Assembly (NCBI GenBank): GCA_025677815.1
Contig: JAIXMP010000003.1
Span: 1,674,001-1,738,000 of the forward strand
DNA: 64,000 nt
Origin: Phascolomyces articulosus
Taxonomy: Eukaryota; Mucoromycota; Mucoromycetes; Mucorales; Lichtheimiaceae
Reading direction: 5' to 3'
Shown: positions 4,632 through 62,244 of the stretch, in pieces
Layout: each line of letters opens with the position of its first letter
How positions within the stretch are numbered: position 1 is the stretch's first letter
Program-made: the position numbers and the translations under genes
Notes under the pieces: generated by a model
Told to the model about the DNA's origin: nothing
The model's database searches: none
What the model saw: the letters and a program-made list of their open reading frames with translations, nothing else

Positions 4632-7600
4632 TTAGGACTTAATACAAGAACCAGGAACAGGTGTAGGAGCAGGAGTAGCATTAGCACGGTTATGAGCCAT
4701 GTGAGCCTTTACCAAATGACCAGCTGCCAATGCAGCACACAAGGATAATTCACCAGCCATGACTGCAGCACAAATGATACGAGCCAAACGTCTAGCATTA
4801 TCACCAGGGTTAGTTGGATGAGGACCACGTACACCCAACATATCTAAAACAGCTTGTTGAGGAGGCAAAATGGTACCACCACCAACGGTTCCGACTTCAA
4901 TACTAGGCATGGTACATGAAATACGTAAATCTTGACCATCGTTAACAGGTTCCATCAAAGTCATACAGTTGGAACTTTCAACATTTTGAGCAGGATCTTG
5001 ACCGGCAGCCAAATAAATAGCTGTCAAAAGATTAGCAGCTTGAGCATTGAAACCACCCACGGAACCAGCCATAGCTGAACCAATCAAATTTTTATTGACA
5101 TTAAGTTCACACATGGCAGCCACAGTGGTCTTGAGAACTTTTTGAACAGTTTCACCAGGAATGGTAGCTTCGGCCACAACAGATTTACCACGACCTTCAA
5201 TCCAATTAATAGCAGCAGGCTTCTTGTCAGTACAGTAATTACCAGAAAGAGAAATGATTTGCATATCAGGGAAATATTCTTGCATGACAGCCAATGCCTT
5301 TTCACAACCCTTGGAAATCATGTTCATGCCCATGGCATCACCAGTAGCAGTAGAGAAACGAACAAAGACTAAGCGACCAGCCAAAGCAACTTTGAGTTTA
5401 CGTAAACGAGCAAATCGGGACGTAGAGTTGAATGCTTCAGTAAGAATTTCATTGCCTTCTTGTTCGACCCATCGTTTACATTCACCTGCACCCACAATAC
5501 TTGGGAAGCTAAGACAAGGACCACGAGCCATCATATCATTGGTAACAATGGTAGTAGCACCACCACCTTGGTTAATGGCTTTACAACCACGAGCAGCAGA
5601 GGCAACCAAACAGCCTTCAGTTGTAGCCATGGGGATATGAACGTTGATACCATCAATAATCATAGGACCAGCAATACCCAATGGGATAGGCATGTAACCA
5701 ATGACGTTTTCACAGCATGCACCAAATACTTTTTCGTAATGATAGTTTTCAATAGGCAATAAACTTTGTTCAAGTGTCTTTGTAACAGAAGCACGAGAGA
5801 TCAAGGAACGACGGACACGAACAGCACGAGTGAAATCACCCAAGGTACGTTCCAAGGCATAAGGTTGAATTTTACCCTTTTGGACAAGTGTAACAACTTC
5901 TTCATCATTCAAGGCTTCAGGTGTCTTGATCAATGTAAGACATTCATCAATGGATCGTACAACATCAGAAGAAGGTGGTGCAACAGTAGCTGCTTCAGTT
6001 TTGGCAACAGCGGGAGTGGCAGGCTTTTCAGTGACAACAGGGGCAGCAACAGGGGAAGCAACGGTGATAGGAGCTTGTTGCTTTTCTTCGGGTTGCTTAG
6101 GTTGACGAACGACCTTGAACAAATAAGTGTTGAGGAAAAGAGAAACAAATAAAGCAATCGACAAGAGTTTGCTAATAACGGGATGTTGGATATAAATAGC
6201 AGCAGCACTCAACAAGGTACCCAAAGGTTGGGAAATCACTTCAGGGATAATGCTCTTGCGAACGGATTCAGCAACATGGAAAGGCAAGGGAGGGAAAACT
6301 TCAATAATCAATGGCAAATGGTTTTGCTTGGAAGATTGGTGCTGTTGCAAAAGTTGTTGAAGAATGCCGGCGACACTAGGTTCAGTGGTGTTGACTTGAG
6401 GATTGGTGGATTGGAAAGTAGAACATAATTTGAAAACATGCATGCCAATAAAACCAGCAATCTAAATTATCATTCATCCAATTTAGTTAGTCAAACTTGT
6501 TATTGTTTTTTTTTGGAATCACAGGGAATAAAATAAATAATTAGAAAATAATTACCATAAGCAACTTGAGACGACCGATAATAAAGTTGTCAGCCTTGCC
6601 ATCTTCATTATCACTGACATCCAACACCTTGACAACAGTACGACGAACATAACCTGTATTCTTAACTGAGCCACCCTTCTTGGCAACAGCAGCAGAGGAT
6701 CCATTTATAGCTCGGATACGAGTAAGCTATATATACATTGTTATATATATGATTATTTGTTAGTTAAATTGGATGTGAGAGGAAATAAAAGAAGGCTTAT
6801 ATCCAAATAGAGACAAGGGGGGAGAAAATAAACAGCATATGAAAAGATTCCATATTCATGCACACATATAAACAGCCCGGGTATTGGTTTAATAACAGCC
6901 CGGTATTTGGCATCTGATTTACCTCAAGTTTCAAAGTTAAAATGGCGGTATAACACGTGAACATGGCAATGAAATCATAAGCAAGCAAAAGCGCACTTAA
7001 GAAACAAAATTCGCGAAGACCGGAAATACCAGATTTGGCACCAATTGTAAGCACTACGATTTCCATTAAACAATCACGAGTAATGGATGCAGCAACAGAA
7101 TCCACAGCACGAACCACAGTCTTATGAATATCTTGTTTGGCGATAGGTGTTTCCTTGCTCAATTGGAAAACACGCTTTGTAAGCTTGATAGATCGTTCAA
7201 ATCCAATAGTAACGGTGAGAAACGGAATGGCTTCACTATAATGGATTGAGATTATTATTATTATTATTCCAGTCCCGGACCAACAATTTGTTTATCGTTA
7301 ATAACGTATATATTTCTCTATTTTTAACTTTTTGTAGAAAATACTTACGCCAAGACAACAGGATAAACATCCACGTTCAAAGCATTGACAGTAACTAGTG
7401 CAAGCATGAATGAAACGAAACCATTGAATACAACGGCGGTGGCTATTATATGTGCCAAAACAAATTAGTTTCTCACTATTTTTTCTAAAAAAAATACTAG
7501 TCTCTTTTTGTATAAACATAATAATAATAAAATCTTTACCAAGAGTATAACGAGAACCCATGGATCGCATGTTAATAAACAAGGAAGCAAAAGTGGCAAT

Positions 7601-35521: not shown

Positions 35522-37425
35522 ATGGTTTCAACATTTACAGGATCTATTGAACAACAACTCACAACAACAACTTCAGGAACAAATTATTCACAAACTGAAA
35601 GTTCTCCTGACTGGAGCATTGATGATAGTGCTCAAGAGCTTTTAAATGAAGCCATTGCCAGTAATTATCGATCTCAGGACAATGTTTCCAATAAACAAAT
35701 TGGTTCGAAACGCAAGTCGACTAATGCTACTGGAAAATCAACAGAAGACAGTAAGCTTCTTTCTTTTTTATTGATTTATTTAATATATATAAAGTCAATG
35801 AAATGAAATTGAATTCTTGATAGGCAGAAAAATGAGAATTGTCTTCTAAACTCTCTCTTTTTTTTCTATGACCATAAAAAAAATAAAGGTTCTTCACTGT
35901 CGTCTTCTGGAGCCGAGAAAAGAAAAAATAACAATAAAGGTTAGCCAGTCTTTTTATTGTTTCTTATTTATTTTTGTTATTGTTGTTGTATTCTTTTTTT
36001 TTCATGTGGATAATAATCTGAGTCTATGTATATCAATCATTTACAGGCAATAATTCTAATACATCTGGTCCAAAAAGAGCTGGTCGAAGGCCATTGGAAA
36101 AGACTGTACCCACGGTAAAGTGTTTTTCCCTGTTGCCGTTTTACTTTTTTTTGGGGGGGGGAGAGAAGAAAGGAGCAATGCGTATTGCCACACACATTTA
36201 TTATATAATAACAATCAAAAATAAAAGAAAAAGGAAATAACTAACAAATATAAACATTCTTTAGGACGCACCATTGGATCCAAAACAAAAGCGCAAAGAA
36301 CAAAATCGAGCAGCACAACGAGCTTTTCGTGAAAGAAAAGAGCGTCATGTGTCAGAACTGCAAGAGCGAATTCGGCAATTGGAAGAAGAAAATGCATCAC
36401 ACAGCCACCTGGCAGAGGAAAATGCCATTTTAAAAAAACAATTACAAAAACTTCAAGAGGAGAACTATTCTTTAAAGGGCACTCCTTTCACATTTGAATT
36501 CCCACCAAAGACTGGTATTGTCCATGAGGATGAATTCCAATATAGGAGTAGCAGTACTACCAGTAGTAGCTGCGGCAGTTTGAGCGTCACGGGCGATAAA
36601 TCATCCACAAGTAGCAGTAATAGTGAAAAATCCAGCAGTAGTGAATCACCTTCCATGACATTGGATCACCTTTCCAGTTTGGAAGAAGATGAAGGTGAAC
36701 AAAGAGAAGAAGAAAAAGATTTACTTGAACAACAACAGTTCCAACAACAACAACAACAGCAAGAACAAGTTCCGGAGCAAAATCAACTTGAACAAACACA
36801 ACAAGATATATTGGATCAACAAACATTCCCATCATTCCAAAACGCGCAAGAATTATCAATCGATGATTTACTCGCTCCCTTTGCTAATAACACAGATAAC
36901 TTTTTCTTCAATAATAACAATACGACCACTACCACCAATGCCATGTTACCCAAAGACCAATTCGCATTTACTGATTATCGGGTACCTCAGTCAGCCGACA
37001 GTTTTCTATTTCAGGCGGATTTACCACCACTTTTTGGTGGCGACGTGGATCTATTTGGTTTATCGGCCCCTGCACCGAATAATGATAACATTGATCCCAT
37101 CACATTGACTTCATCCAATCCTATCTTGAGCAACAACCCTGCATCCACATCCACTGCATCATCACCGACTTCACCTATTACACCACCTGCCGATAACAAA
37201 AAATCAAGCTGTCAAATCTTGAATAAATTACGAGAAGCCAAAGGACAAAATCCAAAAGCCATGGAAATTGATCGACAACTTAAAGACTACTGTCCAGAAT
37301 TTGATCTTGACAATCTTTGTTGGGAATTGAAAGAAAAAGCCAAATGTTCAGAAAATCGATTTTCTGAAAAAGAAATGGGTCATATCATTGATTATTTTGA
37401 AAAGAAGGGTGAGTGTAAGAATTAA
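35522..37425 (+). CDS. YAP1: Yap1/Pap1-family bZIP transcription factor
   Basis: Oxidative-stress regulator; in yeasts it is kept cytosolic by Crm1 and accumulates in the nucleus when C-terminal cysteines are oxidised. Four exons: 35522-35750, 35889-35939 (51 nt), 36047-36114 and 36265-37425. They join in phase to 502 aa. Residues ~123-142 are the basic region, KRKEQNRAAQRAFRERKE, with the Pap1-subfamily signature NxxAQxxFR. A leucine zipper follows (LQERIRQLEEENA, LAEENAILKKQLQKLQEEN). The middle is Ser-rich, then Gln-rich, then acidic or Asn-rich, and resembles activation regions. The C-terminal cysteine-rich domain is clear (LDNLCWELKEKAKC), with Cys at about 432, 459, 468, 477 and 500. 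It overlaps the expected Crm1-dependent export signal. An N-terminal cysteine cluster like that of yeast Yap1 is not obvious, which is more like Pap1. Two quinone-oxidoreductase-like genes in the window belong to a class that such factors often control. Confidence 0.93.
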
Positions 37426-41698: not shown

Positions 41699-42772
41699 TG
41701 TTATTTTTTATTTAGGGAAAGAAAAAAAGAAAAAGAAAGAAAGAGCGTGGCAAAGTAACAAACAAATGTGCTAAGTTTAGCAACCTATAAAGTTGCTTGG
41801 TGGCAATGCTGCATTGATGTGCTGAAACTCAAAAAAAAAAATGCATCCATCTCCTTTTCAAGTTTTTTTGCTGCGCCTAGTGATAAATTATATCAATTAT
41901 CAAAGAGAGATAGCAGATGGGTCTATGTTTTGCTCTTAAAGGATCATTATTTCACTATCCGTAATAATAATTGCCGCATGTTCTAATCCTGGCACTATCC
42001 ACAAAGAACGAACTATTATAAAACAATCAAGCCATCTTTTTTGTAACTACTGATAATCGTGAGTTACAAAATAATACTATTATCCCAAGATGTTATTCAA
42101 ATTATTCACATAAATAAATACTGAAAATATACATCGACGATATAAAACTAATAAATATGCTATCGTATTTCTTTGCTAAAGGTATTTTATTATAATAAAC
42201 AAATATGGGTCATTTGTGACCACGCAATGTTTTCATAGAGATTGTACCATATAATGAAGAACAGATGCTATCTTCTTATTATCACACATGTTAAGTTATA
42301 ATGCAGAATAAGTAGTAAAAACCACATGATTTACTAAAAAAAAGATTAAGTATCATCATTACTATATCTTTCTAAGAGAATTTTGTAAATGTTTTATAAC
42401 CATTTAAAGAAATAAATGAAAAGACGCCCCGATATTATGAAAACTTACTTGATCTGTCCAGTTCTCTTACTCCTCCTACTGATAACTTGTAATGATCCAC
42501 ATTGAACAACGTTCTTGGGATTGACAGGAATAGTAATCTGACGTGGAATAATCCAACAAACACACCCTTTTTATCTCTTGTGAATAAAATCTGATACGAC
42601 TGTCACCATATAGATATTTATGATGACAATACAAAACCGATTAAAAATTAGTAAAAACGCGTCATTTCGAACTATATTTTTTATACTCCTTTTGCATAAA
42701 GAGTCAACAAAGCATTGCACTTGTATTGTTTTTTCAACTCATAAACACAAAAAAAAAAAAAAAAAAAAAACC
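41699..42772. other. Divergent intergenic region with an orphan exon-like segment
   Basis: The region lies between the LMBR1-type and quinone-oxidoreductase starts. A minus-strand open segment at 42449-42537 with an AG acceptor and a GTAAGT donor is described in the findings. A TTACTAA motif, the Yap1 recognition element, lies at 42331-42337. A 20-A run directly precedes the ATG at 42773. Confidence 0.5.
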
Positions 42773-44122
42773 ATGGCCAAATCAACTACCATTCCCGAAA
42801 CAATGCACGCATTGCAAGCAGTGAAACTAGGATCTCCTGAAGAATCATTAAAATATGTTGAAATCGAAACACCCAAAGTGACACGTCCAACTGATATACT
42901 GATTAGGATAAAAGCAACGGGTGTCAATCCTGTCGAAGCCAAAGCCAGAGCTGGCAACCTTCCCATTCCATTGCCCATGCCTCGCATCTTCGGTGGTGAT
43001 TACGCTGGTATTATTGTTGATAAGGGATCCAAGGTCACTGATTTCAATATTGGTGATGCTGTCTATGGTGCATTGAGTGTACCCATTACTGCCAACGGTA
43101 TGTTGTCTCTATTTTTTAATTAATTAATAATAGTGAAACGCTGAATGAGAAAAAACTAAATTTTATTATCATATGATTTTTTATGCGTCACCAAGGCTCT
43201 TGTGCTGAATATGTAAATATTATTATTTTTATCATTTCATATCTTTTTTTTTTTCATTGCATCTCTATCGAAAATAACAGCTAATCTTTTATTGTCGTTA
43301 TTATATGTAATAGATGCTTGCATCTCAAAATTCTGGTGTAATTATCAAAAAACCTGATAATATATCATTTGAAGAAGGTGCTGGTTTTGGTGTTGCGAGT
43401 AAGTTCATAAGATTGAATTTCTCTTTATCTTCTCGTGATGATAACAATATAAGAAAATACTCATACTATAATCAATTCACATAAATCTAGTGATTACGGC
43501 ATATCAAGCTATTACTGTATTGGGCAATTTGCCCAAAGAAGGAGCCAAGAAAATTCTTGTTATCGGTGCTTCTGGTGGTGTAGGAACTTATGCTATCCAA
43601 TATGCAAAGACGATTCCCGAAACACAAGTAGTTGGCATTTGCAGTGGAAGAAATGCAGAACTGGTCCGTAGTATTGGTGCTGACCGTGTCATTGATTATA
43701 CATCCACGGAAGCGATGGACAAATTGGTCAAAGATGAAGTAGAAACCTATGATTTAATTGTGGATTGTATTGGCGGTGATGATTATTATAATCAATTAGT
43801 CAATGTGTTGAAAAAGAAGGGAACTTTTGCAACTGCAGTAGGCCCCACCATGCATATTGGAGCAGAAAAAGTTGGATTGTTTAGTGGCTTTATGATGGGT
43901 TCGACTGTCCTTGGTCGTAAATTGTTTGGTAGTCGCTATTATCAAGTGGTTATATATCTTCCATGGAAAAAAATGGCAACAGATATTAACCCGTTGGTGG
44001 CAAGCGGTAAGATCAAGACTGTTTTGAGGGATGATCAAATATTTGATTTGAAGGATGGTGTACAAGCACATAAGAAGATCGAATCTCACCGTACTGTTGG
44101 TAAAATTATTATTCGTGTCTAA
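42773..44122 (+). CDS. Zinc-free MDR quinone-oxidoreductase-like protein, copy 1
   Basis: NAD(P)H-dependent oxidoreductase of the medium-chain dehydrogenase/reductase superfamily, zeta-crystallin/quinone-reductase type. Four exons: 42773-43097, 43196-43212 (17-nt micro-exon), 43314-43398 and 43491-44122. Together they give 352 aa. The catalytic half has IRIKATGVNPVEAKARAG and FGGDYAGIIVDKG, where zinc ADHs would have Cys and the GHE motif; these are absent. The micro-exon encodes part of NGSCAEY. The Rossmann dinucleotide motif is VIGASGGVGTYA at residues ~167-176, followed by GICSGRNAELVRSIGADRVI, which is typical. The C-terminus reads AHKKIESHRTVGKIIIRV. The substrate is unknown. The start ATG follows a 20-A tract; an ATG at 42620 is in frame but precedes that tract and lacks family similarity. 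A paralogue of this gene lies at 58479-59857 with conserved intron positions. Confidence 0.9.
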
Positions 44123-45271: not shown

Positions 45272-45457
45272 TTACATAGCCAACGCATTTCTTTTGGTAC
45301 CTTGACGATTTCTTGTAACATACCGATCTCTTGAAACATGACGGTCCCTTTGAGTGTAGCGTTCCCTTTTTTCGACTACTCCTGGAGTACCATGAACAGT
45401 CAAAACTGTCAAGAGAGTAATAAGCGTAAACAATACTATCCAAATAGAACTACGCAT
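45272..45457 (-). CDS. Short secreted precursor, diverged paralogue of the His-hexamer repeat protein
   Basis: 61-aa ORF. The ATG at 45457 is chosen because it begins a clean signal peptide (MRSSIWIVLFTLITLLTVLT, then VHGTPG), and it matches the leader layout of the larger gene at 46973-48028, which also starts MRS. After the signal comes VVEKR, a Kex2-type site identical in place to that of the larger protein. Then follow four hexamer-like units in the same phase, ERYTQR, DRHVSR, DRYVTR and NRQGTKR, and a short end NALAM. DRHVSR corresponds to NTHVTR units of the relative, so common descent is likely. Most histidines are lost. A TATA-like TATATAAAAT lies about 120 bp upstream on the minus strand. 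It may be a functional divergent peptide precursor or a decaying copy. Confidence 0.6.
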   Translation of the reverse strand: MRSSIWIVLFTLITLLTVLTVHGTPGVVEKRERYTQRDRHVSRDRYVTRNRQGTKRNALAM

Positions 45458-46972
45458 GATGGTAAAGATCTTGATAATTTTGACAATATAGAAAAATATG
45501 TTTAATAAATGAATGCTAAAAGTTTCAAGGTGAAGATGAAGAAAAAAACGCCTCCTCCAAACTTCATCCAATCCTTATTTTATATAGATTTTTTTTGGTA
45601 TAACAATCTAAACATATTTATACTAAATATTCGTGACGAGTTTTTAGTGTATTACTAGTTGGGAGACCTCGGAAATTGTTTTCAGTACATTTTTGATTAG
45701 TGTGGTGTATGACATTAAAAAGTTTACATGTTGATGCTACGCTTCCGTAAGTATACTATAAATATCAACTAAAATGGAAAACAACTTTTCTTAATTATAA
45801 AAAATAACTGGCAAAAAACATAGTATTACATTACAAAACGATGATCCGTTTATTGCACAGTATATCACGATTGGAAAAAATGAAAAAAGAAACAACGTAT
45901 ATGTCAAAGTAGTATAAACATAAAATGCCCCGTTATGTGTGGCTGTGTGGTTTGGAACTGCTAAATATACATAATCGCGTTTTATTTATAAAACAGGGAA
46001 CCGATTAATAACATGTAAACTCTCATGGGCCATTAAAAAGAAAATGGATATGAAAAGCATATATCAACAAGATTAGGACATCCCGTATTAAATACCTTGA
46101 TTAATCATCCTTATACTGCTATACAACCCTCGCTATCCTCATTGCTCGGAAAATTACTTAAAGAGATCTCCATTATAATCAACAAATGTAAAACGATCTA
46201 ATCGTTGGATGATAAAAATAGAAAAAATGAGTTTGCATAATAGGTCCTCGTCAAATTGGAATTAATTCCTAGATATTTTTAACTGAAGAGGAAAAATTCA
46301 TGATTAAATCATCAAAGTGTGAACTACTTTTCTGATGATTCTATTGCAACCTTGTGAGGACCTATTACAAAAATACAGGCTAGAACCCGTATAAATTTTT
46401 CTTGGGCTCTCATATTTTTTCCTTTTTAGTTAAAAATCAGTTTTCTCTCAGGATTTAATTATTTGCGACCTGGTGAAATGCCGTAAATTTTTATCTTCTG
46501 TACGAGGAATCATTTTTCCCGAATTTCCCAAGTGACATTGTTGTTTATTTTAATTGATGTCATGACCCCAATTGGATAAAAATAATACAAATAAAGGGCT
46601 ATTATTGATTATGCTTGGTATACTACCTATGTGTCATTTTATGGCAGATGTGCTTAGTTTCACCAATTAGTTTTTGTTATTTCTACTCATAATTACAATG
46701 AACTATCGTATACTTTAACTTATAGAACATCATTCAGATAAATAATATATATCATATTCTTTAATATATAAAAATATTGACAGGTAAATAAAAATGGAAA
46801 CATAAATATAAATAGCATGGTAAAGTGATAATGAATGGTATGTTTTTTATTGCTATATAATACCATGGACATAACAAATACTAGTAACAAGAAAAAAATG
46901 AGAAACATTTTTTTTGTTGGTTCGTAGTCTTGTCAGCTCAACTTTACTTTATTATACTATATATTTTTCGTT
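45458..46972. other. Intergenic region between the two precursor genes
   Basis: It holds the promoter of the short precursor, a TA-flanked inverted-repeat element (46241-46364) and the 3' flank of the large precursor. No other gene is supported. Confidence 0.55.
46241..46364. mobile_element. MITE-like inverted-repeat element
   Basis: TA-GGTCCTCG at the left (46241) is mirrored by GAGGACC-TA at the right (ending 46364). The outer match extends as TAATAGGTCCTC / GAGGACCTATTA, and weaker complementarity continues inward. Internal AATCATCA/TGATGATT forms a nested stem. The 124-bp size, terminal inverted repeats and TA borders fit a Tc1/mariner-type MITE. Confidence 0.5.
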
Positions 46973-48028
46973 TTATGGAGCGTGGCTATCTCGTTTACCA
47001 GCATGATTATCTCTGGTTACATGGTCATCCCTCTTATCAGGGTGATTGTCGCGAGTAACGTGTGTGTTGTCAGTGGCATGTTGGTCGCGCTTTCCAGCAT
47101 GGCTATCGTAGCCAGTTGCGTGCATATCTCGGGTGACGTGTGTGTTCTTGGTAGCGTGCATATCACCAGTGGCATGTGTATCTCTCTTACCAGCATGGCT
47201 GTCTCTGGTTGCATGGGAATCTCCAGTGGCATGTTGATCGCGCTTTCCAGCATGGCTATCGTAGCCAGTTGCGTGCATATCTCGGGTGACGTGTGTGTTC
47301 TTGGTAGCGTGCATATCACCAGTGGCATGTGTATCTCTCTTACCAGCATGGCTGTCTCTGGTTGCATGGGAATCTCCAGTGGCATGTTGATCGCGCTTTC
47401 CAGCATGGCTATCGTAGCCAGTTGCGTGCATATCTCGGGTGACGTGTGTGTTCTTGGTAGCGTGCATATCACCAGTGGCATGTGTATCTCTCTTACCAGC
47501 ATGGCTGTCTCTGGTTGCATGGGAATCTCCAGTGGCATGTTGATCGCGCTTTCCAGCATGGCTATCATAGCCAGTTGCGTGCATATCTCGGGTGGCGTGT
47601 GTATTCTTGGTAGCGTGCATATCACCAGTGGCATGTTGATCGCGTTTTCCGGCGTGGTTTTCTTTGGTTATGTGCAAATCTCGCTTTCCAGCATGGTTAT
47701 CTCTGGTTGCGTGGGCATCACCCGTGGCATGGTTGTCTCTTGCTTGAAAATTGCCTCCACCAGTTACATGAGTGTTTCCTCTCTTTGTCATATGGCTGTC
47801 CTTGGATATATGGCTGTCTCTTGCTTGAAAATTGCCTCCACCAGTTACGTGAGTGTTTCCTCTCTTCGTCATATGGCTATCCTTGGTTGCATGGTTGTCC
47901 CTCTTGGTTGCATGCCCATCGCCAGTTGCATGGACGTTCCTTTTCTCTACTGCAGGAGCGGCATTCACTGTTGATATTGCCAAGATGGCCAGCACAACAA
48001 ACAATGCAATCAAATTAAGACTACGCAT
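46973..48028 (-). CDS. Secreted His-rich repeat precursor with 15 Lys-Arg (Kex2-type) sites
   Basis: 351-aa single-exon ORF. The ATG at 48028 is chosen because it opens a signal peptide (MRSLNLIALFVVLAILAIST, then VNAAPAVEKR). An upstream in-frame ATG at 48118 would put 30 residues before it and lies close to the TATA box. The whole mature part is built of hexamers [D/N/E]-x-H-[A/V/M]-[T/G]-x, for example DQHATG, DSHATR, DMHATK and NTHVTR. About 48 histidines occur and no cysteines. Lys-Arg occurs 15 times, mostly as Gly-Lys-Arg. Cleavage after each would give peptides of 13, 19, 27, 32 and 33 residues, with the 19- and 32-mers alternating. Residues from the middle repeat as a 51-residue (153-bp) unit, almost identical at DNA level in three tandem copies starting (plus-strand marks) at 47087, 47240 and 47393, with a partial fourth. 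The layout is that of fungal Kex2-processed repeat proteins. Metal binding by the histidines is possible. Function is unknown. Confidence 0.82.
   Translation of the reverse strand: MRSLNLIALFVVLAILAISTVNAAPAVEKRNVHATGDGHATKRDNHATKDSHMTKRGNTHVTGGGNFQARDSHISKDSHMTKRGNTHVTGGGNFQARDNHATGDAHATRDNHAGKRDLHITKENHAGKRDQHATGDMHATKNTHATRDMHATGYDSHAGKRDQHATGDSHATRDSHAGKRDTHATGDMHATKNTHVTRDMHATGYDSHAGKRDQHATGDSHATRDSHAGKRDTHATGDMHATKNTHVTRDMHATGYDSHAGKRDQHATGDSHATRDSHAGKRDTHATGDMHATKNTHVTRDMHATGYDSHAGKRDQHATDNTHVTRDNHPDKRDDHVTRDNHAGKRDSHAP
47087..47641 (-). repeat. 153-bp tandem repeat inside the His-rich precursor
   Basis: The marker GCGCTTTCCAGCATGGCTAT starts at 47087, 47240, 47393 and 47546, exactly 153 bp apart. 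The next partial match starts near 47642, 96 bp on. Copies 1-3 look identical or nearly so by eye. The period is a multiple of three and of the protein's hexamer-plus-KR units, so gain or loss of units keeps the frame. Confidence 0.9.
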
Positions 48029-48097
48029 AAGAATATGTAATAAAAAAGGTGTTGGATAAAAAAGAAAGAAGAGGGAAAAAAATGCTAGCCTTTTATA

Positions 48098-48108
48098 TAT
48101 AGTTTTAT
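48098..48108 (-). promoter_or_regulatory. TATA box of the His-rich precursor
   Basis: On the minus strand CTATATATAAAAG lies about 70-80 bp upstream of the chosen ATG at 48028. This supports that start and a strong TATA promoter. Confidence 0.6.
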
Positions 48109-51454: not shown

Positions 51455-54216
51455 TTATTTTTCAACCTTCTTTTCTTCATGATCAACATTGACATCGTTA
51501 GAAGGTGAATTATTGGAAGAAGTCAACGACGATGATGAAGTGTTCTGGCTTTCCGGAAGAATATGACGAGTACAGGATGCAACTACCGCTTCATGCATTG
51601 TAAAGAAAAAGTAGGGATAAACATCAAGTAGCTGTTCGTCATGGTGATGATACATATTATCGCATGACAATGCTGATTCGGTCTTGATAATAGTGTGATT
51701 TTGAACGTCGTTGATCATTTCAATCACGACTTGTTGTTCTTCTGCTTTTTTATTGTTAGTGGATGACTGTTGTTGCTGGTACTGTTGTTGATTATTACCA
51801 CAGTTATGACAATAACGAGAAGGAACAAGGATACCACCTTTATGTTCACCTTCTTCTTTCTGTCGCTTTTTGAGATCTGAACGGAATGGACCACCACGTT
51901 TGCGTTCTTGGGTACCAAAACCTCCAAACAATAATGCTTTTCGCACCATCAATGAATCGTTGATAACAAAGTACCAGGAAACAGGTTTACCGGCGTAACG
52001 TTCTGCTTCAAGAACAGCATCCTTGATACGGTCGATACCAGTATAATCCATTTGGTAAAAGCCAGTAAAATCCACAATCACCGCATGAAGCAACGGTTTA
52101 CTCATATCATTATCAGCAATTGTTTGTCGACCCACTTCATTCCAAAACCGGTCGCCCACTTTTTCGGCCAACGGTTTACCTCGACGTGTTGTGCGTTTGA
52201 TTTCGTCCAATAATCTTTGAGTAAAAAACAGGGAATTTTCAAAGACCATGCTTTCACGTGGTTGGAATGCAACGACACCAGGAGCAATGGGCTGTATATA
52301 TTGGCCAAGCATAGGATGGGTGAAAGAAACATATTTGCAATTGTTCTTGGTATCATTATGGATCCAGTCATCATCTCCGATGAGGTCGTTTCTTTTTAGT
52401 CCTAATTTCTCGCTTCTGCTATCGTCTTTTTCGCTACTATGACTTGCTTGCTGTTGATCTGCCATCCATGTTTTATTATCCAGGCGGCCTAAGAAAGCAT
52501 AATTGGGTCGAGCAGTACGATAGAGTTGAATAATAATGGTAAGACCGATAGTAATATATATACTGATATCAAGACGAGAGAAAAAGGCAACAAAAAAAGC
52601 GCATGCGAAAATAAAAAGTTCAGAAGGATGGACATTCCAAAAACGACGCCAAAATTTAGGCATGACAATAAGTTCAGTGACAGCATGAGCAATGACTGCG
52701 GCAAGACTTGCAACGGAAATAAACTGGAAAACGGGAGTAAGGGCGTATAGTGCCAAGACGACTATAACAGCAACAAAAATGTTGTACAAGGGTGTTTTGG
52801 CACCGCTCACGTTTGCAACAGCACTTCGACAAAAACTCCCAGTTGCTGGATAAGCAGAGAAAAAGGCACCGAACACATTGGTAATACCTAGAGATAAGAT
52901 TTCTTGATTGACATCAACTAGTAGAATAAAAATAAACGTTAGCATTGTTATATTATTAAAAAAAAGTCAAGAAAGAGAGTAAAACTTACTTCGATAGCCA
53001 GATCTTTTGCCCAAGGTGATAGCTACTGCGCATTGTTCTACAATAAGAAGAACTACCATACTTGGAAGATTCGATGCAACATGAGCAAAAAGACCTGTAT
53101 CAAACTTTGGGACAGCCATATTTTGGAAACCAGCAGGGACAGGGCCAATAATAGTAAATGAATGCTCACTGTGTTGTTCATAATCACTAAAGTGGACAAG
53201 TACCCAAGCCAAAAAGGTTGTAAAAATGAGACAAATGGCTTTGCGGCATACGCTAAAATAGTTTATTGCACGAGCACGGTTTGGGTATCGTTTGGCAAAA
53301 TATTCGCCTGCGTATTGGACACCGTATAGCCAAACCAAGGATAAAATACCAAAAACTGCATCATAGCTGGTATGTCGAATATTTTTTAAGATGTTGACAA
53401 GAATCATGAAAGGTGAATCTCGGGTGCTAACATGAACGCCTAATATTTTACCAAGTTGACTGATGACAATAGTGACGGCACTACCTGTCATTATACCTCC
53501 AAGGGCAGGTTGACTGATGAAATCGAATAAAAAGCCAAGTCGAAAAAAGCTGAGAGCAAGTGTAATAATACCGGAAAGAAAAGCCATTGTTACTGCGAAC
53601 TGTTGATCTGTCCAAACACCTGATTGATATTGTGGTGTACTCTGTACTGATGTAAGAACTTGGCTTAGGAAAAGTGCACTGATAGCAGTAGTGCCTATTA
53701 ATGGTGATTGTTTAATATGTTAATTATTATTATTATTATTTGAATAAGATGGCCACTGTGATTGTAGTATATTTATTACTAGTAATAAACAATTTGTGAA
53801 TATCATACCAATATTGATATCTTTTGAAGTTCCAACAAAGGGATATATAACAAGACCAACAAAACAAGAGTATAATCCAAATTCTGGTGGAAAACCAGCC
53901 AATTGAGCTAATAATAATAACATATTGTTAAGGAATGAGTTAGTCAATTTAATATTGTACAGCAATATTATATGTGTAATAGAGGTCATTATAAACTATT
54001 ACCGTAAGCTATAGCTTGGGGTACGATAATTGTTCCAACTGTAAGTCCACTAATAAGATCGTTCAATAACCATATCCAGTTGTAACTAGGTAACCATGAA
54101 ACTATGGGAAGCGTAGTGGAAAAATAAGATCCAGCATTTTTTGGTAGATTTCGTACTGTCGATCGTACTTGTTCGGTATATGTTGATGGTGGATTGTCAA
54201 CAAAAATTGATGACAT
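51455..54216 (-). CDS. SulP-family sulfate permease with STAS domain
   Basis: Plasma-membrane sulfate transporter of the Sul1/Sul2 type. Four exons: 54003-54216, 53809-53907, 52990-53694 and 51455-52917. They join in phase to 826 aa. The first membrane region carries the family signature in SGLTVGTIIVPQAIAYAQLA followed by GFPPEFGLYSC, which spans the exon 1/2 junction. Further motifs are GGIMTGSAVTIVISQLGKIL, then DVNQEILSLGITNVFGAFFS and YPATGSFCRSAVANVSGAKT, the conserved SulP core. About 12 hydrophobic spans can be read. The cytosolic C-terminal part from residue ~520 is a STAS domain (HAVIVDFTGFYQMDYTGIDR, then IKDAVLEAERYA). It is split by a long polar insert rich in Gln/Asn, as in other fungal permeases. 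It ends in a disordered Ser/Asn tail. It would supply sulfate for cysteine and methionine synthesis; regulation by a sulfur-sensing bZIP is expected but not visible. Confidence 0.92.
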
Positions 54217-58478: not shown

Positions 58479-59857
58479 TTAAATACGGAGAACTATTTTA
58501 CCAATGGTACGTTGAGATTCGATTTTTAAATGAGCATCCGCGCCATTTTTCAAATCCACAATGTTTTCATGTAGAACAATACTTTTTACTGATCCATTTG
58601 CCAAAAAAGGTCGTAAATCATTTGCAAACCGTAACCAAGGATATTTCAATACCAGTGAGTAATTACGTGGACCAAAGAGTTTATGAGATAACGTCTTGAA
58701 CGCCATATTTGCACCACTGTATATATCCACTCGATTGGCCCCTACGTGTTCCTCTGGTCCCACTGTCGATGAATACACTCCTCTTTTCTTGAGTATATAA
58801 ATTAACTTGTTATAATAATAATCACCACCAATACAATCCAAAATTAAATCAAAAGTTCCCTTTTCTTCCTTGGCCAGAGTATCAATACTTCCATCCACTG
58901 TATAATCCACAATACGATCCGCACCTAAACTACGCACAAAGTTAGCGTTTCTGCCACTACAAATGCCAACTACTTCAGCACCAGAAAGTTTGGCGATTTG
59001 GACACCTAATTTTTAAAACAAGTTAGTATATTACCATTAAACCATTTAAGCTGCAATAACCGTACCATAACTACCAACACCTCCAGATGCACCTATGACT
59101 AGAATTTTCTTGGGTCCGGATGTGGGAAGGCGTCCATCCACAATGATTCCTTGATATGCGGTAGTAGCTAATAAAAAGCGAAGGTATTTGAATACGTGAG
59201 CATTTTATTATTAATATAAAAAACAACAACTATGACTTACCAGCAATACCAGTAGCAGCAGCCTCTTCAAATGATATGTTTTCTGGTTTCTTGACAATGG
59301 AATCATATCCTTGTTTTGCGATTATCTAAAATTTATGCAATTCAGAATGATAAGCTTTTTTTTTCTAAATCCGACTAGTCACATAACTTTAAAAAAAATC
59401 ACTACATATTCTGCGTAAGTTCCTGGATAAAAAAAAACTATTATCAGTAGCAAAGAAAAAATAGGGCATGATACTATTATTATAAGATGAAAAAGTATAC
59501 TAAAATAAACATACCGTTTGGACCCCAAGGAGTCCATAATGACCCATACACTTCATCACCAATTTCAATATCGGTCACTTTATCACCTTTGTCAACAACG
59601 ATGCCTGCATAATCGGTACCAAAAATTGCTGGTGTTTTAATAATTATAGAAGAAGTTGGAACATTGCCCATTCTGAACTTGGCTTCTACTGGGTTGACAC
59701 CAGCTGCTTTTACTTGGATAAGAACATCGGTGGGTTGACTTTGTTTTATTTTGGGTTTTGGAACTTGATTATATTGAAGAACGTCTTGTGCTTTACCGAA
59801 TTCCATGGTTTGTAACGCGTACATCATGGTGGTTTCTTTTGTTGACGATTTTGACAT
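58479..59857 (-). CDS. Zinc-free MDR quinone-oxidoreductase-like protein, copy 2
   Basis: Paralogue of the gene at 42773-44122. Five exons: 59515-59857, 59406-59422 (17-nt micro-exon), 59241-59325, 59066-59167 and 58479-59005. They give 357 aa. The start MSKSSTKETTMMYALQTMEF aligns with copy 1; an upstream in-frame ATG at 59980 lacks similarity. IQVKAAGVNPVEAKFRMG, FGTDYAGIVVDKGDKVTD, the dinucleotide motif VIGASGGVGSYG (~173-184) and GICSGRNANFVRSLGADRIV match copy 1 closely. The C-terminus KIESQRTIGKIVLRI is also shared. The micro-exon (17 nt, encoding part of NGTYAEY) and the next exon (85 nt) have exactly the same lengths and phases as in copy 1. Copy 2 has one extra intron inside the Rossmann region. 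The substrate is unknown, and the catalytic zinc ligands of alcohol dehydrogenases are absent. Confidence 0.9.
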
Positions 59858-62244
59858 GGTGGACAAATAATATATGATTTCGCGTTTAATTACAAAGTGT
59901 GGAAATAAGAAAAGAAAGAAAGAAAAGAAAAACGGATTACCTTTTCCAACAGTAATTTTATATAATATTTTTTCCTCCACTCCGTCTCCACGTTGTACAA
60001 AGATATTGTTGGGTTGACGTACTTTTTGAAATTATCGTAACGGTATGGTTTTGTTTGTCAAGCATTTTTTCAATTTATTGTGAAAATTCAATTCACTTTT
60101 ATAACAAAAGATCCATTAATACGTTATAAACTATAATTCAATGGTTTGCTTGCACATTTTTCGTATTAGTTAGAATACAAAAAGATATTTTTTTATGATC
60201 AACAAATGACAGGAGACCCTGATTGCATTTGCGGAGTTAACAGTTTAGATCAAAGTGTATTTTTTATTAAAGGGTGTCTATTCAAGGGCAGCGTCTATTA
60301 GGCAATTTGGCTTTTCATATTGAAGAAATTTGTAATTTTCCAGATATTTAACGTTGAGACCTCCCAGTGTGTCGATTTGAAATAATTTTAAATTTTCTCT
60401 ATTGGTTTTTTTATAGCATTTTGTTAATGGATACAAAGATGATATTATGAGATGTTGATGGAAAATAATAAACTTACAACCAATATCACCAGTATAATGA
60501 TTCAAATATGGTTTCCATTTTGGTTAAATTCAAGCATAGTATGTACATTGGAATAATATGAAGTTTTGTTGAGAAATTATAACACATTTTCCCTCTATTA
60601 AGCCATACGGAATAGCGAAATTTCATCAATCAACCCTATTTTATTCATCCGGTCACTATCAGTTCATCGAATATTGGTGAGATAGATAAAACGAATGTTA
60701 ATATACATACCTTCAGCTATATGTATCATCATGAAACATGATAATAATTTATTAAGGAGTACTTTCGATAGAGCTTTGCACCAAACCGTCAAGATGATGT
60801 CCTTGGATTTAAGTCATCCATTATACTAAACTCTCATTGCAGATACTTTTGCTAATTGTGTTGCTGAGTACCAGCCAGTAGCAGCGGCTGTAAGATAAAA
60901 AATAACCTGTTTATTTTTCGTTTTTCCAACTCATTCACTCATTTGTTTTATTAATGAATGGAGGTAAAGTTGATGGAAAGCCAGTACATTTTGGTAAGAT
61001 AAAATTATTATAAGTGTCAAGTTTGAGAGAGGAATAATAATTCAGAACTCGGATTAATTGGTATATGTGGACAATAAAGCATTGCATGTACGCACTGCAT
61101 TTGACACCAAGTTACCATAAAAAGAAATATTTTAAAAAGCTGGGAAAAGCAAAGAGTCATAAATCCAACAACTTGGTACTATAATTTGCACACATGATCA
61201 TTATTTTATGTGTTACTGTTGGTATATTATAACAGGAAGTTATTACATCTTATCCTTGCGTCCTTTTTTATTGGATAAGCTAATGACTAGAAAAGTTTTA
61301 TGATATTCTAATAGTAAATCATTTTATTAATAGTGTATCGGGTAGCGTGAAAGAGCGTACATATTATTTGTTCCTGCATATATATTTGTACTATAGAAAT
61401 ATTAACCAACTCTTGGATGTATGTAAATTTTGGTTATAAACATAGGAATTATGGCTTGAAATGTAATCAAAATATGTAGCGTGTTTTAAAGCAACAATGA
61501 TGTGATAAGAGGCGAGGATGATACAGTAGGTTATTCTTTGAAAAAAAATATATATAACATTTCCGTTTCTTATATAGCATGCATGTCTTAAGTGAAAACG
61601 ACTCGCTGTCTACATTTACGTCTTTATTGAGTTACTAAAAGAAAAATCTATTAATAAATGTGATGATAGCATCTGAAACTATGGTTAGGTCAGAAACCCG
61701 GATTTCAGAGCATTGAAAATTAATGGCTTTCGGCAGGTTAGTTAAAAAAACATAACAAGTAGAAAAAGAAACTAAAGAATGCTTTGATCTATATAATCAT
61801 GTGTTAGATCCTCTGCGTATACCTTATTACTTCTTGTGTTTAAGTATGAAGGATAAATGGTACAAAAAGTACGAGCAGCCCTATAATTTCTTGCTAAGCC
61901 GACATTTATTGTAGTAATAGTATAAAAAAGAGTAGGAACCAAAAAGGTTTGTTTGATCATATTTGACTGGTGATCATTTCAGCCGGTAGTTTGAAATTAT
62001 GCGCCTTGTTAGCGCAGGAGGAAGGTTCACATTTCTGATATGTCTGGGAGATTATCATTGTGGTGATGTGGATGGAATGGCTAAAAACACCCAAAAAAGG
62101 TTACTGTTTGTCCGAAAATCAGGCATTCGGCTTAGTAGGTTGTTTAGCATATTTTACGGCTAAGTGCATATAAAAACTAGATTTTTGTTGAATTCTTGAT
62201 CCTTTTTTTCCCTCCCAGATATATCTCTTGTAGTATTCATCATT
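59858..62244. other. Intergenic region with coding-like fragments
   Basis: On plus, three short coding-like stretches lie between 60758 and 61000: STFDRALHQTVKMMSLDLSH, then TFANCVAEYQPVAAA ending at a GTAAGA donor, then NGGKVDGKPVHFG ending at GTAAG. On minus, 60278-60520 reads WKPYLNHYTGDIG with a GTAAGT donor. None can be assembled into a gene. They may be remnants of one or two pseudogenes. Confidence 0.35.

Follow-up and report, generated by a model that had tools for sequence, protein, structure and literature searches.

A single-exon gene in the genome of the fungus Phascolomyces articulosus very probably encodes the precursor of a set of secreted peptides, as judged from its sequence. 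If this precursor is cut as predicted at its Lys-Arg (KR) sites, it follows from the sequence that 13 of its 15 peptides carry ATCUN N-termini, that is, X-X-His starts of the kind that bind Cu(II) or Ni(II). The gene was found in a window of 64,000 nucleotides, which is the whole stretch of DNA that was analyzed, and it is accompanied there by a small, diverged tandem paralogue.

Structure of the precursor gene

The first-pass annotation had placed an open reading frame at 46973..48028; these coordinates are correct and the frame is open, to which we add that it lies on the minus strand. It comprises 352 codons including the TAA stop at 46975-46973, with its Met codon at 48028, and its GC content is clearly above that of the window as a whole (Table 1). 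An alternative, longer frame extends beyond this Met to 48118. Starting at 48028 places the hydrophobic stretch MRSLNLIALFVVLAILAISTVNA at the N terminus, where the 9-residue Kyte-Doolittle average peaks at 3.49, and leaves a TATA-like stretch between the two Met codons. The order seen on first reading, a signal peptide and then VEKR, is borne out as an apparent signal peptide of 23 residues followed by APAVEKR.

Table 1. Features of the precursor gene and its tandem paralogue in the window.
Feature	Positions	Strand	Remarks
Precursor CDS	46973..48028	-	Single exon, 351 aa + TAA; open reading frame; GC 0.50 versus 0.33 in the window
TATA-like stretch CTATATATAAAAG	48090..48102	-	Putative; 62-74 bases 5' of the precursor ATG
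Apparent signal peptide, residues 1-23, ending VNA	47960..48028	-	Hydropathy; cleavage site by eye
Short pro-stretch APAVEKR with first KR, residues 24-30	47939..47959	-	From sequence
Mature array, residues 31-351	46976..47938	-	15 predicted products, 48 His
81-bp tandem repeat (27 codons)	47729..47886	-	In the part with the two GNTHVTGGGNFQA stretches; tandem-repeat analysis
153-bp tandem repeat (51 codons, 19-mer + 32-mer)	47071..47636	-	3.7 copies, 99% matches
Diverged tandem paralogue, 61 aa + stop	45272..45457	-	Own-genome searches, E 0.0074 and 5.3e-4; 1.5 kb downstream of precursor
TATA-like stretch of paralogue	45577-45586	-	Putative; from sequence

Composition and repeat structure of the array

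The mature part contains 321 residues, of which 48 are His and none is Cys. No dibasic pair other than KR, which is present 15 times, occurs in the precursor (RR, KK and RK are all absent); the earlier counts of about 48 His, no Cys and 15 Lys-Arg sites are therefore accurate. Gly precedes ten of the 15 KR pairs, in line with their description as mostly Gly-Lys-Arg, the remainder following Thr (three), Glu (one) and Asp (one). The proposed His hexamer is equally well founded: the pattern [DN]xH[AV][TG] fits 41 of the 48 His residues, whereas after shuffling the residues of the mature region 1000 times the number averaged 0.29 and never exceeded 3. Two positions before His the residue is Asp in 39 cases, Asn in eight and Glu in one, and the 47 His-His intervals measure 6 residues in 27 cases, 7 in 16, 8 in two and 13 in two. 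A six-frame scan of the window showed no second stop-free stretch of at least 60 residues with three or more such motifs or five or more KR.

Two points of the first description need to be amended. The array had been called uninterrupted, but a GGGNFQA stretch breaks it twice. The alternation of 19- and 32-residue units holds for eight of the 15 units, while units of 27, 33 and 5 residues had gone unreported; in order, and including KR, the unit lengths are 13, 13, 27, 33, 13, 32, 19, 32, 19, 32, 19, 32, 19, 13 and 5. Both tandem periods (153 and 81 bases) correspond to whole codons. For the 32-mers and the 19-mers alike, three of the four copies share the same DNA sequence, which suggests that the middle of the array is young and that part of its regularity reflects recent duplication.

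For analysis of selection within the array, units were chosen by their position after a basic run (34 places, 22 distinct) or after KR (15 places, 10 distinct), regardless of His. Pooled pN/pS is 0.46 for the distinct basic-run units and 0.60 for the distinct KR units, values that count non-independent events, the units being kin by duplication. Among the 22 basic-run units, pN is 0.23 in column 1 and 0.13 in column 3, the Asp and His positions, compared with 0.53-0.56 in columns 2, 4 and 5; pS is saturated at columns 1 and 3, and both His codons are in use (CAT 13, CAC 7). The ten KR-anchored units have the same tendency, with pN of 0.29 and 0.28 in columns 1 and 3 versus 0.70, 0.56 and 0.43 in columns 2, 4 and 5.

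The tandem paralogue and neighboring genes

Searches of the organism's own genome (47.4 Mb, 110 contigs) at the protein level returned at least one further place besides the array. This is the paralogue, which is new relative to the first-pass annotation. A similar signal peptide is followed there by VVEKR and then by ERYTQR-DRHVSR-DRYVTR-NRQGTKR-NALAM, so that its mature part starts ERY and holds one His. In a single BLASTP comparison, which draws in part on the hydrophobic signal peptide, 22 of 57 residues are identical to the precursor (E 4e-9). The precursor and this paralogue, which may be a working gene or a remnant, seem to form a tandem family of two members that share VEKR and the hexamer without sharing the wealth of His.

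Elsewhere in the window, frames of zinc-type dehydrogenases (PF13602) flank the region on opposite strands (43490-44122, plus; 58479-58937, minus), and the frames upstream of them (42620-43123 and 59480-59980) look like candidate first exons. At 51455-53587 on the minus strand is a sulfate permease (PF00916) in two frames, the downstream one containing STAS, with a short gap between them that is probably an intron. A bZIP factor at 36274-37425 (plus) has a weak PAP1 match in its Cys-containing C-terminal part (21.1 bits, cut-off 23.2). The HMG-CoA reductase frame at 4635-6443 (minus) matches that of Fennellomyces sp. T-0311 (Mucorales, Lichtheimiaceae) from end to end with 83% identity; among the best 120 of 7908 matches, no other full-length one exceeds 76%, and two partial matches have 80% identity across 74% and 63% of the query.

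A probable Kex2-processed repeat protein

Kex2-processed repeat proteins (KEPs) are defined by a signal peptide, no further membrane segment, at least four fragments delimited by KR or RR, at least three of which are similar, and repeats covering at least 15% (PMC6339444). In the precursor, 15 KR delimit 15 products after the first KR, including four 32-mers and four 19-mers, and the four 19-mers alone account for 76 of 351 residues (22%). Hydropathy, the sole measure applied to the signal and membrane features, gives a strong N-terminal hydrophobic stretch and negative GRAVY in the 11 distinct products. Since its repeats agree with the definition, we place the precursor in this known class. 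The proposal of a secreted, Kex2-type multi-peptide precursor, here in the Mucoromycota, is well supported by sequence, with secretion and cutting as its predicted parts.

Candidate enzymes for the cutting are encoded in the same genome. Two kexin-type loci, on contigs C24 and C18, each contain subtilase (PF00082) and P-domain (PF01483) exons, followed by a frame that by eye has a hydrophobic stretch and a charged tail; the last P-domain piece of the C18 locus scores 20.8 bits, slightly below the cut-off of 21. The P-domain of both loci is split across two frames near profile position 56, which looks like a common intron place. The genome also has genes for peptidase S10, the family to which Kex1 belongs. 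KR is followed by Asp at 12 of the 15 sites, and published support for cutting at such sites is mixed. Cleaved Kex2 sites show an excess of acidic residues at P1', P2' and P4' (PMC2515848), whereas a scan in Pichia that covered all 20 residues at P1' gives K, G, W, R, N, Y, F and L as the better ones, a list that does not include Asp (PMC10135057).

Two kinds of further modification were considered and are not adopted. For a cyclised, ustiloxin-type product, neither the genome nor any of 14 control genomes gave a match to UstYa (PF11807, DUF3328), and Tyr is scarce (4 in 351 residues). Gly before Lys-Arg is the C-terminal amidation signal of animal neuropeptides. Despite the Gly at ten of 15 sites, amidation is unsupported here, as the genome has no match to the PHM amidating enzyme (PF01082 or PF03712, E up to 1), the 14 control genomes being empty as well.

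A single-sequence AlphaFold2 model has a mean pLDDT of 49.2, with no residue at 90 or above and nine at 70-90, and its N-terminal helix (residues 3-19) averages about 66. The missing confident fold fits a peptide precursor, as a weak indication from a model.

Predicted products and their N-termini

Cut after KR, the precursor would give products that start, in order, with NVH, DNH, GNTH, GNTH, DLH, DQH, DQH, DTH, DQH, DTH, DQH, DTH, DQH, DDH and DSH. His would therefore be third in 13 of the 15 and fourth in the two that start GNTH, conditional on Kex2 cutting. The tendency goes beyond KR, as X-X-His follows 32 of 34 basic runs (KR or single K/R). Seven of the eight distinct triplets have His third, for which p is 1.2e-5 under an assumption of independence that the triplets violate. 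Pro at position 2 or 3 is incompatible with an ATCUN site. The residues present at position 2 are Q, N, T, V, L, D and S, never Pro or Ala (0 of 15 each), and position 3 is His or, in two products, Thr, again never Pro (0 of 15), so that neither ATCUN chemistry nor STE13 trimming raises an objection.

Eleven of the 15 predicted products are distinct in sequence, and one 17-mer (DQHATGDSHATRDSHAG) and one 30-mer are present as exact cores three times each. All 11 are hydrophilic (GRAVY -0.71 to -2.14), with at most one Tyr or Phe each and no Trp. Their computed net charge lies between -0.1 and -3.1 at pH 7.4, and between +0.2 and +3.7 at pH 4.5.

Possible copper or nickel binding

An NH2-XXH start defines the ATCUN motif, a Cu(II)/Ni(II) site, and histatin 5 begins NH2-Asp-Ser-His; the Kd values listed there range, depending on method, from about 10 uM to about 8 pM, and Zn is bound weakly by two histatins, with Kd of 238 and 195 uM (PMC12787115). 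In histatins the Cu(II) complex has a band near 515-520 nm and the Ni(II) complex one near 420 nm (PMC12787115). The position of His in 13 of the 15 products left by the KR sites favors Cu(II)/Ni(II) over Zn, and by the weak Zn binding of the histatins, too, copper or nickel is the predicted metal.

We propose the following sequence of events. The precursor, with its signal peptide-like start, would enter the secretory pathway, where kexin, of which the sites and two loci are observed, would cut after Lys-Arg and a carboxypeptidase would then strip the KR. The outcome would be about 15 hydrophilic peptides, linear, lacking Cys and 5-31 residues long, eight of the 15 being 17- or 30-mers. Each of the 13 X-X-His N-termini could bind a single Cu(II) or Ni(II) ion as a square-planar ATCUN complex, predicted to be of the 4N type, and the downstream His residues, mostly every six or seven residues, would provide weaker metal sites. 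Extracellular copper is the metal that the peptides would most likely bind, whether to buffer it or capture it on behalf of the hypha, or to turn redox-active copper against competitors; we prefer neither of these. That copper or nickel handling, acting on extracellular copper, is the function for which the ATCUN peptides were selected is the reading we favor, though tentatively, as possible but some way from probable. A stronger version, in which basic residues have been placed so that nearly each cut, at KR or at a single K/R, exposes Asp-X-His or the like, we hold to be rather doubtful. If it were true, one transcript would give rise to over a dozen ATCUN peptides, and the KEP route would yield an extracellular Cu(II)/Ni(II) ligand that is genetically encoded in a fungus, a peptide counterpart of metallophores.

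The paralogue counts against a metal role, as it is the only close relative and does not keep the His-first arrangement, and its poverty in His speaks in part against a metal function of the family as a whole. The DxH register after KR could also stem from descent of the units from one ancestral hexamer. No copper genes were seen among the ten scanned of the 28 open reading frames of the window. Secreted proteins rich in His, for which a role with metals was suggested, have been reported before from another fungus of the Mucoromycota (PMC5293756). An ATCUN reading for a Kex2-processed protein was not found among the open-licence papers listed, and a histatin review deals with ATCUN and Kex2 in separate places (PMC7409060).

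Alternative readings

Those characterized KEPs that PMC9769878 names act as mating factors, virulence factors and modulators of mutualism, and the peptides might likewise be signals or ligands in biotic interactions that act through a receptor or target, in which case the His pattern would be ligand sequence and metal binding incidental. The exact repeats of the 17-mer and the 30-mer would suit a ligand amplified in dosage, and a paralogue that retains the plan without the His wealth favors signaling as well. However, the heterogeneity of the units, with 11 distinct sequences among 15 products, fits this poorly, as does the absence from all 15 sites of the alpha-pheromone-like STE13 signature (XA or XP after KR), and the Mucoromycotina are said to employ apocarotenoids as sexual pheromones (PMC6339444). 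We regard signaling as somewhat unlikely. The charge values instead bring to mind antimicrobial or surface peptides switched by pH, acidic near neutral pH and cationic in acid, when His is protonated; ATCUN sites are found in the antimicrobial peptides histatin, hepcidin and piscidin (PMC7701195). Against this, hydrophilic products so poor in aromatic residues are not expected to insert into membranes or to form Rep1-like amphipathic fibrils, which makes the reading improbable.

The protein might also remain uncut, as a long secreted or wall-bound His-rich polymer. KR-Asp cutting is a prediction here, and Asp is absent from the better P1' residues of the Pichia scan; both would allow for this, as would the low-confidence strands modeled in the 32-residue units (pLDDT about 50-63). 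The KR pairs tell against it, standing at the unit borders at all 15 sites and being encoded by seven different codon pairs, as do the acidic P1' residues over-represented at cleaved sites (PMC2515848) and the kexin loci of the genome; a polymer is in our view very improbable. Least credible of all is a young or decaying repeat gene without selected function, which the recent exact 153-bp duplications, the small and diverged paralogue, and the failure to find a full-length homologue outside the genome among the candidates listed would permit. The conserved columns with synonymous change and a frame that is open over 351 codons speak against it, joined by the N-terminal region of the paralogue (pS 0.54 versus pN 0.28 over 30 codons), where the sites are few and the indication weak.

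Relatives and novelty

No full-length relative was found outside the organism's own genome: 7994 candidates were scored, and neither of the two matches among those listed has a KR-separated array. With residues 1-60 as the query, none of 40 candidates matched; no Pfam family scored above its cut-off for the precursor, and no match with E up to 1 was found among 177635 distinct sequences of solved structures. Prokaryote genomes and viral contigs, where a fungal gene is unexpected, gave five pattern stretches and one, respectively, none confirmed by tblastn. Within these searches, the suggestion that the family is likely undescribed holds, there being no Pfam family and no KR-separated array among the candidates listed.

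One match is to protein P0001 of Penicillium bovifimosum (PF04616, GH43; its source name is that of an unrelated reductase), which has 15 DxHxT units such as DQHATGD, DSHMTG and DAHATRD and scores 53.9 bits; when its residues 196-400 were shuffled 100 times, the score rose no higher than 20.8. It differs from the precursor in that 13 of the units lie inside the enzyme, at residues 197-375, and in having three YRR sites and no KR. Three YRRDTSNIF-type repeats (one of them YRRRDTSNIF) accompany a hexamer vocabulary common to the precursor array. The likeness may reflect either convergence or a shared repeat. The other, P0002 (an ENA protein of 195 aa with 11 Cys, E 1.2e-4), looks like a low-complexity match and was rejected as a relative.

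A survey reports 7878 KEPs in 1345 of 1461 strains, with 9.15 per Mucoromycota strain, and 2560 of them are without homologues (PMC7329392). Private repeats are thus common in KEPs, which makes missing homologues ordinary for the class. KEPs are numerous and their functions largely unknown (PMC9769878). If ATCUN binding is true of the precursor, a class linked until now to mating, virulence and mutualism would gain a metal-handling role, and the phasing of protease sites would appear to serve the making of metal sites. If the prediction fails, the precursor is one more lineage-specific KEP.

Comparison with known systems

The precursor has in common with KEPs the signal peptide, at least three similar KR-separated units and a compact array, while its His-rich DxHATx hexamer array does not appear in the descriptions of KEPs given in the relevant parts of PMC6339444 and PMC7329392. 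Two proteins of Ustilago maydis are close in plan (PMC4617103). Rsp1 has hydrophilic imperfect tandem repeats, 11 in number and of 18 or 21 aa, with putative Kex2 motifs between them; its function is unknown, and we liken it by its description, in which His content is not mentioned. Rep1 likewise has tandem repeats separated by Kex2 sites and releases many secreted peptides, but these are amphipathic and form surface-active, amyloid-like fibrils (PMC4617103), whereas the products of the precursor are hydrophilic. By mean hydropathy, the only measure used, the GRAVY values of the 11 distinct products are not those of amphipathic Rep1-type peptides, and Rep1-like fibrils were set aside on this basis.

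Within the Mucoromycota, the SP7-like effectors of Rhizophagus share with the precursor a signal peptide, hydrophilic imperfect repeats and KR-type sites (PMC5293756, PMC11333574). This likeness is by description, and several members of that family have a nuclear localization domain, with no hint of the family in the Mucoromycotina. Rhizophagus RiSP319, 631, 531 and 256 are, as is the precursor, secreted and His-rich, and metal binding has been suggested for them; again we liken them by description, in a passage that does not list them as cut by Kex2 (PMC5293756). For the N-termini, the nearest counterparts are human proteins for which we claim no homology to the precursor, and affinity is here a prediction: the ATCUN sites of histatin 5 and serum albumin present the same free N-terminal Asp-X-His as the predicted products, and histatin, like them, has further His downstream (PMC12787115, PMC7701195).
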